A stretch of DNA of 28,374 nt from a virus, in the IMG/VR virus record IMGVR_UViG_3300021960_000379, positions 1-28,374 of that record; one strand, given 5' to 3'. A model generated the notes under the pieces. That model ran no database searches and had not been told where the DNA came from. It saw only the letters and a program-made list of their open reading frames with translations. Positions 1,304-28,154 of the stretch are shown here, piece after piece (position 1 is the stretch's first letter; each line of letters starts with the position of its first letter). A program made the position numbers and the translations under genes.

Positions 1304-2527
1304 TTAATTTGGAATAACAACCCTGATCTCGTCAATAGACGATCCCCACACTTCCGACGAGGTCACTCCGCCTGATCGTCGATAGAATGCAGCTTTTTGT
1401 TGGAAATTCAGTGTCAAGGAATGAGTCGATGTGTTATACTGCCAATGAACTCCTGTTGATTTAGTCGTATCTGTAAGTTCGTACATGAAACCAAGTGGGA
1501 TAGGTTTCACGTCATTAGGCAAGGCGGCGAGTCTTCCATAAATCATTAAATTACGCCAAGGGAACTCTGTGCTAATAGCAGAAGTGAGCGTCTCTGAATC
1601 CTGTGTCCCTGCTGCCGAAGATATAGACGTGCCGCCCCAACTTGTTACCCATCCACTGTCGTAAATATGCCGAGATGCACCAGAGAGAACAACCGCACCA
1701 TTCCTGTCCCACAATTGCCCTGACACTGAGGGGTCGGTGGTCGGTAAATTAAACATGGAGATTTCACCATCAGTCCCGAAGGTCATTAGGATGTTCTTTA
1801 GTGTGATATCATCGTTGTAACTCGCTAGTGCTAATGTCCCTGATCCATAACCAAGGTGCATGAAACTCTCATCGGATGCAGCAGCGTCATCATTCCAGAC
1901 TATTGTAGGGGCATCTGCAATCAATCGAAGTGTTGCCGCATCTGAGCCTCCGCCTCCAGTGTGTTGCACTGTTAGGGTTGCCTCGCCTGTGCCGTCTGCA
2001 ATTAGTATATCTCCGTGAAACTTATACTTGGAACCAGAAACGTGAGCACCACCTATTCCGAAGAAGCCTGTAGTGGAATCATAATTAAGGTCCAAAGGCA
2101 ATGCCTCCCATTGGTCCGAAGTGGAATCAAATGCCAATACACTATTGTCAGTCAATGAGGCTTTCCTAAATGCCAAATCTGCTGCTTCCTGTGCGAGATA
2201 AAGTCCGTGTCGATAAGAGCCATCCAATTGATCCCCTGTAACAACTGATCCGTCTGAGAAATCATAATCCAGTGCAGTGTCATCGTAATCCTTGCCGAGT
2301 GTGTCCCGCATCACAATGAACTTAGTCCCTCCTGTTGGTGCTACATCAAACTCTATGTTTGTTCCGTCTATATCGAAGGAATATGCACCAGCAGTCGTGG
2401 AGTCATAGCGTGTGCCGTCTGCATCCAACTGCACTATAATGTGAGAGTCACTGATCCAGTCTGAAACAGGAATAGCGTAGGTTGTTATAGATCCGTCACC
2501 TGTGTATGTTCTGTATGTGTTCGCCAT
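1304..2527 (-). CDS. Tail fibre protein with T7 gp17-type N-terminal domain
   Basis: The first 120 or so residues match the T7 tail-fibre N-terminal domain (PF03906 type), which anchors the fibre to the tail tube. Visible landmarks are the YTGDGSITTYAIP opening, the FDVAPTGGTKFIVMRDT strand pair and LYLAQEAADLAF near the end of the domain. The middle (about 120-275) is a Gly/Asp/Ser-rich repeat-like shaft. The last 110 residues (from about SGWVTSWGGTS) are beta-rich with several Trp and Tyr residues and are the likely receptor-facing tip. At 407 aa it is shorter than T7 gp17 (553 aa), and no chaperone or lyase domain is evident. The ATG at 2525-2527 has GGAG about 8 nt upstream. It follows the gp16-like gene immediately, as in T7. 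Confidence 0.9.
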   Translation of the reverse strand: MANTYRTYTGDGSITTYAIPVSDWISDSHIIVQLDADGTRYDSTTAGAYSFDIDGTNIEFDVAPTGGTKFIVMRDTLGKDYDDTALDYDFSDGSVVTGDQLDGSYRHGLYLAQEAADLAFRKASLTDNSVLAFDSTSDQWEALPLDLNYDSTTGFFGIGGAHVSGSKYKFHGDILIADGTGEATLTVQHTGGGGSDAATLRLIADAPTIVWNDDAAASDESFMHLGYGSGTLALASYNDDITLKNILMTFGTDGEISMFNLPTTDPSVSGQLWDRNGAVVLSGASRHIYDSGWVTSWGGTSISSAAGTQDSETLTSAISTEFPWRNLMIYGRLAALPNDVKPIPLGFMYELTDTTKSTGVHWQYNTSTHSLTLNFQQKAAFYRRSGGVTSSEVWGSSIDEIRVVIPN

Positions 2528-2529
2528 GA

Positions 2530-5500
2530 TTAAAACTCCAATGTGTTTATTAAATTGTCTAGTGCCTGCCCTTGCTTCTGCCTTCGCTGTACATCCTTGT
2601 ACTGCCTATGGAACTCTTGCAACTCTGGATATTCACGCAAGGCACGATCTAAACCTTCCGCACGATACTTGGAAAGAACGCTGTTAATCATTCGTATGCG
2701 TGGTGAAGGAAGTGCTGGCTCGGATCTCGGAGAGTGCTGTTGATACTCTCTGGACTTTATAAGCTTATCTAGTGCTTGGCGTAGTGTCTTGCCGCCAATA
2801 CGAACAGTTCCCGTGAGTTCTAGTCGTCGGTCGTGTGCAGATTGTCCCTTCTCGTTTTCATAACTCGTCAAGTCAATCAACCCTCGGTAGCTTGGGGAAG
2901 GGGTGGTAAATCCGTGATCTAGTGCAGCAATCTCTTCCAGTACCGCATCGGTCTTTGCGGTCTTGTATCGTATTGGGCTAATTGCATTAGCAAACGGGAC
3001 ATTGAACGTGTCTTGAGTCTCTTTCGCCTCGCCAAGCAAGTTGCGTCTAGGGTCTAGTCTTACGCCTGATCCTGTTGGGCTGTAGATGCGGAACTTATCT
3101 ACTGTGTTGCGTAGTTCCTTTACGTCATTCGCATCCATGATTTCTCCGACAACCTCCCTGCCTGTCGTCCTCCAGAATCCCGCAAGTGGAACTGTTGAAT
3201 TGACTGCAATATTTCCGAACAGCCTCTCAATACCTCTGCCGCTCTCATCTGACATTGCCTGAGTAAATTGCTCCATCCCTGCCAAGTAAGACTTATTAGT
3301 GATGTTCCGTTGAAGGGTTATCATCAGGGTGAATAGGGTCTTTTCAATAGCTGGACGATTGAACTCCCAATTTTCCTTCATCATATCCATTACGTCAGCA
3401 TATATACCGATCACAGTAGCAAGGGGGTCGAGCCTTTGATAACTCACCCATGAGTCACCCACCTTTATACTGTAAGGCTGCCATCCTGCATCTTCCAGAC
3501 TCTTTCTCGCTTTAGCATCCCTCGGCCCGCCACCAGTAAGCTTGTCACTAAATGCCAGCATTGCTCCGATGTGTGCTCCCATTGCGGTAAATGTTGTCGT
3601 GATCTTGCCCAATGCCTTAGCCTTACGCAAGGGATCGCCTGATAATATGTCAGCTTTGAGGGGCTTCATATTACGAGGGTTAATTAAACCAACGAGACTG
3701 CGATCCGCCGCATACGTGAGGATGTTTACAGGGGTCCGAATGAATGGGAAGATGAAAGATAGTACAGGATTTTGTGTGACTAATTTATGAAAGCCACCAC
3801 TTAGCGACTTGGGATCTAGGTCTTTTGTGAAAGTCAACTCCTCGGCAACATCCTTGCCGTAGTTGGATAGCAAGCTTTTGGACTCATCGAAGTTGTCCTT
3901 CACATACTGAGCTACAAAATCAATTGTATCCTCGTCATTCAAATCCATTCGCCTTGCCTCAAGAAAGCCTTCCCTTGCAACAGTGCGTTCGCTGTATAAC
4001 TCTCCGCCTTCCGTTACGATCTTCTCCAGCTTCGTCTTAACCAACTGAGCAATCTCAGTTGAACTTGTAGCCCCTTCCTCAATCGCCTCAAGGGTTGCTT
4101 TATACTTTGCAGCACGACGAGCGTTGAGTTGCTTAAAGAACTCGTCTGCTCCCGTTAGTCCACGACTCGGCCACCTTAATACTTGTGCCATCGTGTTAAA
4201 GGTATCATAGAACGCACTATCAGGCCGAATGCCCATTGCCTCAGATGTGATTGCTGCCTCTGGTCGAACATCAAGTGCTCGGTTGCTATTCGGGATGAGA
4301 AATTGCTTGTCGTCGGTTAGTGCTCTCTTGCTCCAGCGAAAAGACTCCATCCATGTGTCCATGTCTACTGCTGCCTTGATTGCTGCCTTAGCAATATCTG
4401 GCCTACCTGCAAGCAACGCACCCGCTGATTGCTCGAAAGTATCTAGTGCCATTGTGAGCATGCCGCCCATAATATTAACGGACTGAGTTGGTAATCCAGC
4501 GAGCAGGTTATTGATCCAGAACTCACGCAGCATATCAAACTTACCTCCCTTGGTGCTATCGGCTATGCTTAGTATCTGTCGCATGACCTCATCCTTATTG
4601 CCGCCTCGCTGTAGGATGTCCACCACCCGATCAATCCACGCTTTCTTCTTGTCCCTCATCCATTGCTCACTAAAGACTCGCCCTCCCATCTTGATCTCCT
4701 GAACTGGATTGACCTTCACCTTCTTATTCCTGAACAGTGCAGTCTCTCTTAATCCAAGTCCGAACTGTCTGGCAATCTGAGAGTCAATAGCAACGTACTC
4801 GTAAAGATCTTCAACTAATGCTGCGACTTGTGCCTTCTTCTCGATGTCACTAATCCCGACCATATTCTTTGCAATGTCGGTGATTTCCTCAAGATAGGAT
4901 TCAGTGACCATACGGAAGGATGTTGCACGAACACGGATCTCTTGCAGTAATCCCTTGTCCTTGAGAGCAATAGCCTTGCGGTACTCCCTAGCTTGTGAGG
5001 CAGGCAATACATTGATAGCTTCCTCAGTGGCATCCACTTCATCCTTAATGCTTTCTAATGGACGAGTGGGAGGGGTTACTTTCTCATTTTCACGAACCGC
5101 TTTATTGGCGAACTCCAGTACTCCAACTCGGTCAGCAGTAGATCCAAAGTTCACAACGCCGCCCTTGCCAATTCCTCCTACATTCTTGAGGTAGCGGTTG
5201 GCTAGGTCGTTCGCATACTCTTCCGCCTTCCCCTTGCTCTCTTGGTCTGTGAATGGAATTTTTTCTGGGTCTTCACGCAGGGAAACTTTGACGACTTCAT
5301 CCTTTTCTTTTGCTTTTGGTTTCTCCGCTTCCTTTGGCTCATCCCTTGGTGCTGTGACTTCTGTCTCTTCCTTGATCGTGTCATCAATCAAGTCTTCATC
5401 GGTGCGTGGGAGAGTTGGCTCCTCCTGTCGAATTAGTGAGTTGACGAGGCTTTCAGGATCATCGCCAAGTTGTTCACGCACAGCACTAGATACTACATCC

Positions 5501-25312: not shown

Positions 25313-26086
25313 ATGAAAAACTCGTTCATACTTTATAACGACTTACTGCCGACTGTGGAAAAGCTATCAGACGAAACAGCAGGCAGGTTGCTGAAGATGA
25401 TTTTGCAGTATGCCAATGGAGACAATCCAACAACCGACGATCTTGTGCTGGATGTAATCTTTGGATTGGTGCAGCAGCAAATCAAGCGGGATACCAAGAA
25501 GTATTCTGAGTACATTAAAAAGCAACGGGATAATGGGAAAAGGGGCGGTAGGCCAAAGAAGCCAGCGGTTAATCAGGAAACCCAAAAAACCCAACCCTTT
25601 TTAGAAAAACCCAAAAAAGCTGACAATGATAATGTTAATGTAAATGACAATGTAAGTGCTAGTGTTAATGACAAACAAGATACTCCCCCCATAATCCCCC
25701 CTAAAGGTGGGAATACGCCAATTCCTAAAAAGCCACACTTTGATCTCAGTCATGCAGAACAATCCAATATGGATGGTGACTTAGCCTTTGAGATATTCGA
25801 CGATTGGGCAAGAGCCACTGGCAAGACCTATCAGGATTGGGATATTGCATGGAGGAAAGCTTGCCGTGAATGGTTGCCAGACAAATACGCAAAGGTTAAA
25901 GCCAACCAACAGATACAGAACACCGAGATCAAATCAACTCCAGTCGAGCCTATCAACTGGCATAGCTTTGCAATTGAACAATATCCACAACTCAGGGACA
26001 AGCTGGAAACCGAGTACAAGCAATGGGACGACCTGCCGCAAAGCATTCAGGAAGCCATAACCGAGGACATCAAGAATGATTCATGA
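25313..26086 (+). CDS. Replication initiator / helicase loader candidate (DUF6291-like N-terminus)
   Basis: Residues 1-80 (SFILYNDLLPTVEKLSDETAGRLLKMILQYANG..., KYSEYIKKQRDNGKRGGRPKK) match the N-terminal domain seen in many phage replisome-organiser proteins (DUF6291 type), including the basic GKRGGRPK hinge. A low-complexity Asn/Asp/Val linker at 103-119 follows. A C-terminal helical domain with DDWARATGKTYQDWDIAWRKACREW (163-187) resembles the loader domains of DnaD/DnaT-like and lambda P-like replication proteins. It is directly followed by the DnaB gene with an 11-nt overlap, the expected partner: it should recognise the origin and load the helicase. The ATG follows the copy B RNA leader by only 3 nt and has no free ribosome site. 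Confidence 0.78.
   Translation: MKNSFILYNDLLPTVEKLSDETAGRLLKMILQYANGDNPTTDDLVLDVIFGLVQQQIKRDTKKYSEYIKKQRDNGKRGGRPKKPAVNQETQKTQPFLEKPKKADNDNVNVNDNVSASVNDKQDTPPIIPPKGGNTPIPKKPHFDLSHAEQSNMDGDLAFEIFDDWARATGKTYQDWDIAWRKACREWLPDKYAKVKANQQIQNTEIKSTPVEPINWHSFAIEQYPQLRDKLETEYKQWDDLPQSIQEAITEDIKNDS
25621..25672 (+). repeat. AATGT/AATGA-type short repeat inside the initiator gene
   Basis: A run of degenerate 6-nt units (variants of AATGTA, AATGAC, AATGTT) encodes an Asn/Asp/Val linker. In replication initiators such tracts often lie in the region that separates the DNA-binding and helicase-loading domains, and in some phages the DNA itself is part of the origin. Here the repeats could be origin iterons, but they are short and imperfect, so this is only a possibility. 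Confidence 0.45.
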
Positions 26087-27362
26087 CACAGTAACAGTAC
26101 CAGACTCTACGGAGTACGAGCAGGGGCTACTTGCCTGTTGCTTTCTAGACCCTAAGTGCATTCAGGATTCGATCTGCTCAGGCATTGAGGATGCCACATT
26201 CAGCACGATGTTCCATGCAGACATCTGGAGCGTACTGGTTCAGATGGATAAAGACGGGACACATCCCAGCGAAATTGAGGTAGCTGATTGTCTAGCGAGG
26301 GATCACGAACATGACAAGGGTGGTGCCTATCGGGAACTTAACACGCTCACAGAAGCCGCACAGACCACTGTAAGCATGCCGTTCTATATTAAGGAGGCTC
26401 TTCGTATATCTAAATTACGAAAGACCCGTGAAGGATGCTTAACCGCCCTTGATAGAATTACTAAGGACGACGACCCAGAACGCATTGCCAAAGATTTACT
26501 GCAAACACTCAGCGACTCGGCAACAGAAACTAGCCAAGACACAGACATTCCGACAGTCACAGAGAGCGTAATTAACGACCTCAAGCAACGAAACCAAGAC
26601 GGCAAGAAGTTCGTCGGGCTAGGCACAGGACTATCTAACCTTGATACCATCCTTGGGGGATTTCGTGAAAGCTCATTCAACATCATTGCTGGTCGTTCGA
26701 AGGCAGGGAAAACTACACTAGCCCTGCAAGTTGCAATACATAACGCAAAGCAAGGCATCTTCACTCGCATCTGGTCACTGGAAATGTCAGACGAGCAACT
26801 GCTATTCAAGGTGCTGTGTGCAATCGCTCAAGTAAATCCCAATAGGGCTAATGATTGCCTCCTAACGCAAGCGGAGTTTGATCGCCTAGAGTCTGCAAGG
26901 CACGAGATCTGCAAGCTTCCCCTAGCAATCAAGGACATTGCCAACGTAACAACAGAGAGGATTGCAGCACAACACAAACAGGACATCGCCAAGTACGGGC
27001 AAGCCTTCTGTGTGGTAGACTACCTGCAACTCGTCAGGTCTATCGAAAGGAAACTCTCACGGGAGCAGCAAGTGGCAACAATATCACGGGACTTCAAGAT
27101 CCTTTTCAAAGACACTAAAAGCCAAGGTCTTGTATTATGCCAACTCAATCGAGGATCAGAGTCCGAGAACAGGGAGCCACGCAAATCAGACCTTAGAGAG
27201 AGTGGAAGCCTTGAGTCAGATGCAGATTCCGTCACCATCCTTTACAATGACTTGCAAGACCCAGACAAAACTTGGGCTAAAGTTGCAGCTAATAGACATG
27301 GTGCTGAAGGTAAAGCCGCATTGTCTTTCAATAAACCAATCTCACATTTCACCAACTACTAA
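26076..27362 (+). CDS. dnaB: DnaB-family replicative DNA helicase
   Basis: The 428-aa product has the two-domain DnaB layout. The N-terminal helical domain (about 12-105) begins EYEQGLLACCFLDP and contains FHADIWSVLVQMDKDG. The RecA-like ATPase starts GTGLSNLDTILGGFRESSFNIIAGRSKAGKTTLA, with Walker A at 205-213; the catalytic Glu lies in WSLEMSDEQLL (236). Walker B is FCVVDYLQLV (311-320). Motif H4 is GLVLCQLNRGSE (351-362), followed by PRKSDLRESGSLESDADSV (368-386). Walker A reads GRSKAGKT instead of the usual GRPSMGKT, a variant that keeps the Lys and Thr. It unwinds the phage replication fork and is probably loaded by the protein encoded just upstream. The start ATG overlaps that gene by 11 nt. 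Confidence 0.95.
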   Translation: MIHDTVTVPDSTEYEQGLLACCFLDPKCIQDSICSGIEDATFSTMFHADIWSVLVQMDKDGTHPSEIEVADCLARDHEHDKGGAYRELNTLTEAAQTTVSMPFYIKEALRISKLRKTREGCLTALDRITKDDDPERIAKDLLQTLSDSATETSQDTDIPTVTESVINDLKQRNQDGKKFVGLGTGLSNLDTILGGFRESSFNIIAGRSKAGKTTLALQVAIHNAKQGIFTRIWSLEMSDEQLLFKVLCAIAQVNPNRANDCLLTQAEFDRLESARHEICKLPLAIKDIANVTTERIAAQHKQDIAKYGQAFCVVDYLQLVRSIERKLSREQQVATISRDFKILFKDTKSQGLVLCQLNRGSESENREPRKSDLRESGSLESDADSVTILYNDLQDPDKTWAKVAANRHGAEGKAALSFNKPISHFTNY

Positions 27363-27365
27363 CCA

Positions 27366-28154
27366 ATGACACGAAAGGATAAGAATGTGGCACAGCGTAA
27401 ATCAGAACTTCGATCTTTCCACTTATTTGCAGGGGCTGGAGGAGGAATCCTTGCTGACCTCTTGCTCGGACACCAAGTTATCGGAGCCTGCGAAATCGAA
27501 GAGTACCCAAGAGAAGTCTTGTTGCAACGACAACGGGACGGAATCCTGCCAAGGTTCCCAATCTGGGACGATGTCTGCACCTTCGATGGAAGACCGTGGA
27601 GAGGAACAATTGACGTTATTTGCGGAGGCTTCCCCTGCCAAGACATCAGTTCAGCAGGTAAGGGTGCAGGAATTACCGGAGCACGTTCAGGACTTTGGAA
27701 GGAGTACGCAAGAATCATTGATGAGGTACGGCCTAAGTATGTCTTTGCCGAAAACTCACCACTGCTTCGCACTAGGGGACTTGGAGTTGTCCTCGAAGAC
27801 TTGGCCGAAATGGGGTACCATGCAAGATGGGGCGTGTTGGGAGCTTGGCACGTCGGTGCGCCCCATAAAAGAAATAGGATGTGGGTACACGCTTCCAACA
27901 CCTGTTTGCAACCCGTCGAAAAGAAAACTAACAAACGGGAAGAGTCTTTCAGCAAAGGGAGTGAGATACGGCATATCAATGTATCAGATATGCGGTGGAA
28001 ACCCAGACCCGCAATTAGAAGAATGGATGATGGGCTGGCCTTTGGGTTGGACAGACTTAAAGCCATTGGAAATGGACAAGTTCCAGCAGTGGCAGCACTT
28101 GCATTCACGATTCTCAAACAGCGATTAACCAACGACACGAAAGGAAACCAATGA
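27366..28154 (+). CDS. DNA (cytosine-5) methyltransferase
   Basis: The 262-aa enzyme has the ordered C5 motifs: I, FHLFAGAGGG (18-27, SAM binding); IV, GGFPCQD (87-93, catalytic Cys91); VI, FAENSPL (127-133, Glu129-Asn130); VIII, HKRNRMWV (167-174); X, AIGNGQVPAVA (233-243). The variable region between VIII and X, which reads the target DNA, is only about 55 residues, so the recognition site is probably short. Phages use such enzymes to protect DNA from host restriction; no cognate restriction gene is visible. The start lies 3 nt after the helicase stop. A second long open frame overlaps nearly the whole gene (see separate entry), and its stop overlaps the next ATG (ATGA). Confidence 0.95.
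   Translation: MTRKDKNVAQRKSELRSFHLFAGAGGGILADLLLGHQVIGACEIEEYPREVLLQRQRDGILPRFPIWDDVCTFDGRPWRGTIDVICGGFPCQDISSAGKGAGITGARSGLWKEYARIIDEVRPKYVFAENSPLLRTRGLGVVLEDLAEMGYHARWGVLGAWHVGAPHKRNRMWVHASNTCLQPVEKKTNKREESFSKGSEIRHINVSDMRWKPRPAIRRMDDGLAFGLDRLKAIGNGQVPAVAALAFTILKQRLTNDTKGNQ
27385..28128 (+). CDS. Possible overlapping gene in the +1 frame of the methyltransferase (247 codons)
   Basis: A frame shifted by one base is open from ATG 27385 to 28128, within the methyltransferase gene. Its translation is protein-like rather than random. It starts with NFDLSTYLQGLEEE and has FAEASPAKTS (79-88), SSKTWPKWGTMQDGACWEL (136-154), GYTLPTPV (167-174) and LEEWMMGWPLGWTDLKPLE (211-229). I recall near-identical strings in phage proteins annotated beside or within cytosine methyltransferases. 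Those could themselves be alternate-frame readings of methyltransferase genes. The antisense strand is also open over the same span, so openness alone is weak evidence. No ribosome site precedes the ATG. Dual coding is a hypothesis only. Confidence 0.35.
   Translation: MWHSVNQNFDLSTYLQGLEEESLLTSCSDTKLSEPAKSKSTQEKSCCNDNGTESCQGSQSGTMSAPSMEDRGEEQLTLFAEASPAKTSVQQVRVQELPEHVQDFGRSTQESLMRYGLSMSLPKTHHCFALGDLELSSKTWPKWGTMQDGACWELGTSVRPIKEIGCGYTLPTPVCNPSKRKLTNGKSLSAKGVRYGISMYQICGGNPDPQLEEWMMGWPLGWTDLKPLEMDKFQQWQHLHSRFSNSD

Follow-up and report, generated by a model that had tools for sequence, protein, structure and literature searches.

Two C5-cytosine methyltransferases whose conserved motifs are divided between chains are the closest systems described. 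In M.EcoHK31I the large subunit carries motifs I-VIII and X and the small subunit only motif IX (PMC3404938), and in M.AquI the split separates motifs I-VIII from motifs IX-X (PMC3404938). The predicted target-recognition domain of EcoHK31I has been placed in the large subunit (PMC3404938). Phage methylase genes may also contain an out-of-frame HNH gene, the ShiLan element (PMC11855218). Monomeric members of the family (PF00145), such as M.HhaI and Dcm, hold motif IX and the recognition domain in one chain. The small-subunit ORF of M.EcoHK31I reportedly also sits inside the gene for the large subunit, in another frame; this is a single restriction-modification system, and its beta chain is shorter (176 aa).

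The window analysed here, a stretch of 28,374 nucleotides, represents part of the genome of a tailed phage and has genes for a major head protein, a head-tail adaptor, tail and internal virion proteins, an exonuclease and a DnaB-like helicase. The methyltransferase ORF (27366-28154, alpha) adjoins the DnaB gene and lies directly downstream of it. A second ORF (beta) is open in the +1 frame over almost all of alpha. Our analysis suggests, with a probability of about 0.8, that alpha and beta are the subunits of one heterodimeric C5-methyltransferase encoded in two frames of the same strand. The features of the locus, in window coordinates, are as follows.

27359..28138, minus strand: antisense open frame, a by-product without stop depletion
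27360..27387, plus strand: direct repeat, left copy (28 nt, 24/28 identical), bearing the Shine-Dalgarno-like sequence and the beta ATG
27366..28154, plus strand: alpha ORF, C5-cytosine methyltransferase with motifs I-VIII and X and no IX (262 aa; PF00145, phrog_363)
27374..27379, plus strand: Shine-Dalgarno-like AAAGGA, read from the sequence, with spacers of 5 nt to the beta ATG and 7 nt to the alpha GTG
27385..27389, plus strand: overlapping starts ATGTG, beta ATG at 27385 and alpha GTG at 27387 (ATGTGG also in L026, L048 and L057)
27385..28128, plus strand: beta ORF, proposed second subunit, 247 codons from ATG, spanning almost all of alpha
27417..27446, plus strand: alpha motif I, FHLFAGAGGG (profile match to M.HhaI)
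27624..27650, plus strand: alpha motif IV, GGFPCQDIS, with the catalytic Cys (profile match to M.HhaI)
27742..27855, plus strand: beta conserved block SLPKTHHCFALGDLELSSKTWPKWGTMQDGACWELGTS (A1 consensus SSWKTxQCSL...TWPxWGxMxxGECWEL); observed/expected same-codon use in frame 0 is 1.5-1.7
27744..27764, plus strand: alpha motif VI, FAENSPL (profile match to M.HhaI)
27861..27887, plus strand: alpha motif VIII, PHKRNRMWV (profile match)
27883..27903, plus strand: beta PTP element GYTLPTP (A1 alignment), start of the WPTP modules, which are common to the split variants and there lie in the +1 frame only
27994..28071, plus strand: beta motif-IX-like block GGNPDPQLEEWMMGWPLGWTDLKPLE (motif IX matrix), at the peak of frame-0 codon conservation (2.3-2.6 times expected)
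28056..28097, plus strand: alpha motif X, LKAIGNGQVPAVAA, from the sequence and a confident C-terminal helix in the model
28072..28092, plus strand: beta C-terminal MDKFQQW (A1 alignment), on the same bases as alpha motif X
28126..28153, plus strand: direct repeat, right copy, bearing the Shine-Dalgarno sequence and the ATG of the next gene (28151)

Analysis of frame 0 revealed a C5-cytosine DNA methyltransferase (PF00145, E 1.1e-31; phrog_363, E 1.3e-63) with motifs I, IV, VI and VIII, the catalytic PC and motif X. The first-pass annotation had assigned motifs VI to X to this frame; motifs VI-VIII and X are present and motif IX is missing. The profile match to M.HhaI (E 3.4e-21) is confined to residues 15-179, and the alpha profile aligns to M.HhaI and Dcm no further than motif VIII. 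A search of frame 0 with the canonical motif IX matrix found no motif IX, the mean score of 213 genes (-10.2) being level with that of synonymous shuffles (-10.3). The AlphaFold model of alpha (pLDDT 80) contains the catalytic domain and the C-terminal motif X helix, the stretch between VIII and X being disordered or of low confidence, and it superposes on M.HhaI with Z about 20-22 over 196/327 residues (rmsd 3.0-3.2). In the model alpha is without the small domain. Alpha has motifs I-VIII and X and the catalytic fold in common with monomeric M.HhaI and Dcm; motif IX and the recognition domain, which those enzymes hold in a single chain, are absent from it, and the +1 frame of the canonical genes is not conserved.

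The starts of the two frames are interlocked. Alpha more likely begins at GTG 27387 than at ATG 27366, because AAAGGA precedes it at 27374-27379 and relatives L026 and L048 begin at the same ATGTGG. Among 212 loci, 154 keep a fused double start, xTGAATGAG, in which frame 0 begins at xTG and the +1 frame at the ATG four bases on, immediately after a stop in its own frame. For Asn-2, whose codon creates the beta ATG, 178 genes use AAT and a single gene uses AAC, the commoner codon in gene bodies.

Comparison with shuffled sequences indicates that the length of the +1 frame is not a matter of chance. The first-pass annotation had described a 247-codon +1 frame across almost all of the methyltransferase gene, as found here, and had proposed that the gene is dual-coding, a proposal which frequent +1 stops in homologues or synonymous rates at normal levels would contradict; neither was seen. 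For the window gene, a +1 open run of at least 252 codons arose in 0.025% of 20,000 within-gene synonymous shuffles, and a run of 252 codons in 0/20,000 back-translations with phage codon usage. Loci were sampled from IMG/VR with the methyltransferase as query (80), the +1 protein (10) and the +1 profile (80), and from GTDB genomes with the methyltransferase profile (80); a methyltransferase lies underneath all 80/80 loci found by the +1 profile. Using synonymous shuffles that preserve the protein and the codon usage, the core of the +1 frame holds one stop in 73 class-1 genes against 284 expected; another 165 genes hold 3 stops where 610 were expected, the core being open in 163/165. In the +2 frame of the same 165 genes 2,123 stops were observed against 1,738 expected. 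In 44 full-length canonical C5-methyltransferases, Dcm included, +1 stops were at the expected number (525 observed, 541 expected).

The antisense strand is relevant to the possibility that methyltransferase sequence and codon bias leave the +1 frame open as a mere by-product. The first-pass annotation had cautioned that the antisense frame is open too; it is (27359-28138; P 0.023 for the window gene alone), which would suggest that open frames come easily in this sequence. Over 76 genes the antisense frame shows no selection (275 stops observed, 302 expected), and the antisense ORF was rejected as a second gene. Since neither the canonical genes nor the antisense strand are depleted of stops, the openness of the +1 frame is not general to such genes or to that strand. 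The depletion of +1 stops against shuffles and the conservation of the beta sequence where it is the sole open frame (see below) likewise stand against a by-product, to which we assign a negligible probability; the shuffle, canonical-gene and split-locus controls already refute it.

Beta also leaves its mark on the substitutions. DnaB, tried as control family, gave one relative only in IMG/VR, so the controls were flanking genes and canonical methyltransferases; the relatives are not independent sequences, and weight is placed on the contrast with controls and not on P values. In 33 independent pairs, change synonymous in frame 0 but not in +1 (dSN) amounts to 0.26 per site; flanking genes matched for protein identity have 0.69. 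In the same pairs the +1 dNN/dNS is 0.45 against 0.80, and dSN/dSS is 0.12 against 0.53. At an equal frame-0 identity of 86%, the +1 identity is 79% against 64% in flanking genes. The share of change at codon position 3 differs little (0.48, against 0.53 in flanking genes), and the site-class test is more telling. Between diverged genes (protein identity of 60% or less), reuse of the same codon is 1.37 times the level predicted from codon usage; the corresponding value for canonical methyltransferases is 1.02-1.04. The excess is focused at alpha residues 100-135 (1.5-1.7) and in the last 50 codons (1.7-2.6), and is highest, 2.6, over the motif IX of beta. The Arg codon that yields the Glu of this motif in beta is AGA or CGA in 141/141 genes, against 57% overall. 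The first ~100 codons of beta are under weaker constraint (1.1-1.3) and have no counterpart in canonical methyltransferases. With its frame kept open beyond synonymous expectation and dSN suppressed, the +1 ORF at 27385-28128 is, as judged from these sequence comparisons, a real gene under selection.

Analysis of relatives in which the two frames have come apart revealed what the +1 frame can carry. After scanning with the L361, L048 and L026 tails, the split class-1 loci numbered 22. In these loci frame 0 stops after motif VIII, and the +1 ORF overlaps the whole of alpha and then continues with WPTP modules, an EWLMGWP block and motif X in its own frame, so that motifs IX and X both lie on the second chain, as in M.AquI. 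Downstream of motif VIII, frame-0 stops number 6.1 per 100 codons in split loci against 0.24 in the window type. The beta tails of split loci are homologous to the dual-coded tails (E 3e-13 to 9e-79), and the overlapped upstream part of their +1 frame holds 7 stops in 2,991 codons. As these tails are coded in the +1 frame only and are homologous nonetheless, the +1 sequence corresponds to a real protein able to carry the C-terminal motif of the methyltransferase itself. M.AquI (CYCGRG) resembles the split variants L361 and L373; the window gene, whose alpha keeps motif X, differs from it. Beta of the split variants also overlaps the whole upstream alpha, and M.AquI is not known to have such an overlap. 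Two loci considered as single-frame monomeric fusions (L378, L442) were rejected, being frame swaps by a single indel.

The split loci also bear on a programmed +1 frameshift, which would produce one long polypeptide of alpha motifs I-VIII continued in the +1 frame. In split variants such as L361 and L373, this would bring IX and X onto one chain with motifs I-VIII. The +1 frame is, however, open and has a conserved start of its own upstream of any shift point, which a frameshift would not need, and in the split variants it is almost free of stops across the overlapped I-VIII part. In window-type genes motif X lies in frame 0 after the +1 IX-like block, and a single shift would lose it. We consider a frameshift very unlikely.

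Motif IX is one basis for reading alpha and beta as two subunits. The C-terminal consensus of beta, LNPxWxEWLMGWPxGWTDLKPL, resembles the canonical motif IX (LTPRECARLMGFP), and its block NPxWxEWLMGWPxGW shares bases with the motif X region of alpha. With the canonical matrix the +1 frame has a mean score of -1.1 over the 213 genes, against -12.1 for the +2 frame and the values of frame 0 and the shuffles given above. The +1 score exceeds that of the gene's own shuffles at P <= 0.05 in 143/213 genes, the motif being degenerate. The beta profile aligns best to canonical methyltransferases on motif IX, at E 0.09-0.19, which is not significant alone. Profile searches of beta against Pfam, NCBIfam and PDB gave no significant family match, and a chimeric alpha-beta-X sequence did not extend the match to PF00145. 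Beta matches phrog_1008, phrog_35493 and phrog_26627. Modelled alone in AlphaFold, beta is poor (pLDDT 55), a result that fits an obligate partner and equally a disordered protein; matches of this model to viral structures are meaningless at such a pLDDT and were rejected.

These observations may also be read as a real overprinted gene whose product is no subunit but a protein with a role of its own; candidates are a regulator, an anti-restriction factor and an inhibitor, either of the methyltransferase or of host enzymes. The coding evidence is silent on the role of beta, which has no AlphaFold fold and no family of known function except phrog_1008, a label probably inherited from the overlap. 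Furthermore, beta is kept where alpha is broken: seven loci (L124, L154, L306, L323, L346, L360 and L363) have a nonsense codon in frame 0 and a whole +1 frame, single cases of which may be sequencing errors, and the reverse occurs in few loci only (L027, L176, L326). The seven may be decaying prophage enzymes, or beta alone may still be useful there. Against a separate protein, alpha has no motif IX and the +1 frame has a block like it; in the split relatives the +1 frame carries motif X, so that alpha is there an incomplete enzyme by itself; and every locus drawn by the +1 profile has a methyltransferase beneath it. A separate protein is thus unlikely, though the least improbable of the alternatives.

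Under the two-subunit reading, alpha would contribute the catalytic domain fold, the AdoMet pocket, the catalytic Cys and motifs I-VIII, with the C-terminal helix of motif X taken back into the same chain; it lacks motif IX and almost the entire small domain that reads DNA. Translation of beta would be served by the same ribosome-binding site as alpha, from a start few bases apart. Beta would provide motif IX and probably the target-recognition region (WPTP modules), since alpha of the split variants ends after motif VIII and the modules sit in beta. The two chains, if both are translated, would form a complex in which both are needed for methylation, beta reading the target site, and would thus assemble into one active enzyme marking the phage's own DNA. 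Such an enzyme would presumably shield phage DNA from restriction.

Consistent with this reading, the two-polypeptide M.EcoHK31I (YGGCCR) divides its motifs between chains as the window gene does. The large chain of the latter has I-VIII and X without IX, and IX lies on the second polypeptide as judged from the +1 IX-like block, the profile E-values alone being weak; the AquI-type split, which puts both IX and X in the second chain, does not apply to the window, where X is in frame 0. The window pair differs from M.EcoHK31I in several ways: beta lies over alpha along its whole length, the starts are fused, the arrangement is spread over phages and prophages from several phyla, and the recognition region would lie in beta, contrary to its predicted placement in EcoHK31I. 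The ShiLan element is likewise an overlapping ORF in phage methylase genes, but it is an inserted homing endonuclease that is patchily distributed; beta is encoded by the very DNA of the methylase and is nearly universal in the family.

The two-frame arrangement was found in hundreds of phages and prophages, with more than 200 examples whose alpha is about 44-81% identical to that of the window. The loci come from Pseudomonadota, Verrucomicrobiota, Spirochaetota and others, one being on a Leptospira plasmid record, and phrog_1008 (beta) is present in 14/200 Pseudomonadota genomes. Rctr197k-type and SG4-type genes (L211-L290, L183, L185) have a +1 block NPxFxEWLMGFPxGWT and a beta start ~20-60 codons further in, with no fused start; their +1 stops number 107 against 369 expected (n=70) and 15 against 56 expected (n=15), respectively. 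The +1 frame of L073 reaches 382 codons, so the window gene is not, as had been suggested, one of the longest dual-coding genes even within its own family. We propose tentatively, at somewhat below even odds, that a large part of the C5-methyltransferases of phages and prophages function only as two chains, the second overprinted on the first before the divergence of the classes sampled here, and that the WPTP modules are interchangeable target-reading cassettes that have to remain readable in both frames.

Public records annotate one frame only: alpha in S9-5 and ZQ26, and beta in phPA-G, Shamal and SOVA965. The SOVA965 protein WWO60469.1, called a DNA-cytosine methyltransferase, is the +1 frame, and phrog_1008 and phrog_363, both labelled DNA methyltransferase, are different frames of the same DNA. 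The first-pass annotation had cautioned that database relatives of the +1 frame may be mis-called alternate frames; phrog_1008 and WWO60469.1 are indeed the +1 frame, and the split variants indicate that it is a real protein all the same. Many phage methyltransferase entries in databases would thus be half an enzyme, or the other half misnamed, and cloning alpha alone may yield an inactive protein. It is rare for two conserved genes to overlap completely on one strand, and rarer still for such an overlap to divide one enzyme between two frames. With more than 200 natural examples and intermediate forms, the origin, persistence and separation of overlapping genes are open to direct study. We found no paper describing the overlap in phage methyltransferases in a search that covered the subscription literature in part, and make no claim of priority.

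The pair moves as a unit. In the window a 28-nt repeat with ribosome-binding site and start codon brackets alpha and beta, and in a near relative of the phage (G001; L186, L371), with a dnaB 97% identical, an unrelated ORF lies between dnaB and the next gene. Given the unrelated ORF at the same place and the flanking repeat, alpha and beta are gained or lost together, swapped as a cassette. Elsewhere at the locus, the ORF upstream of dnaB (25313-26086) matches PHROGs of unknown function and, weakly, primosomal proteins; it is likely a replication accessory gene.

Beta proteins of L048, L050, L361, L370 and others contain modules of ~30 aa starting with WPTP, whose number and order vary between unrelated phages like shuffled cassettes; examples are WPTPxVCGNYNRKGxSxxSGDGLATxV and MxKGSSPAALTRKxGxSRxNDRLDHAV. 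In L101 (+1 frame open 2425-4078) beta continues in frame into a downstream N4/N6-type DNA methyltransferase (SPPYW ... DPFCGSGTTG) within a 551-codon open frame, possibly a natural case of beta fused to a second enzyme that modifies DNA.
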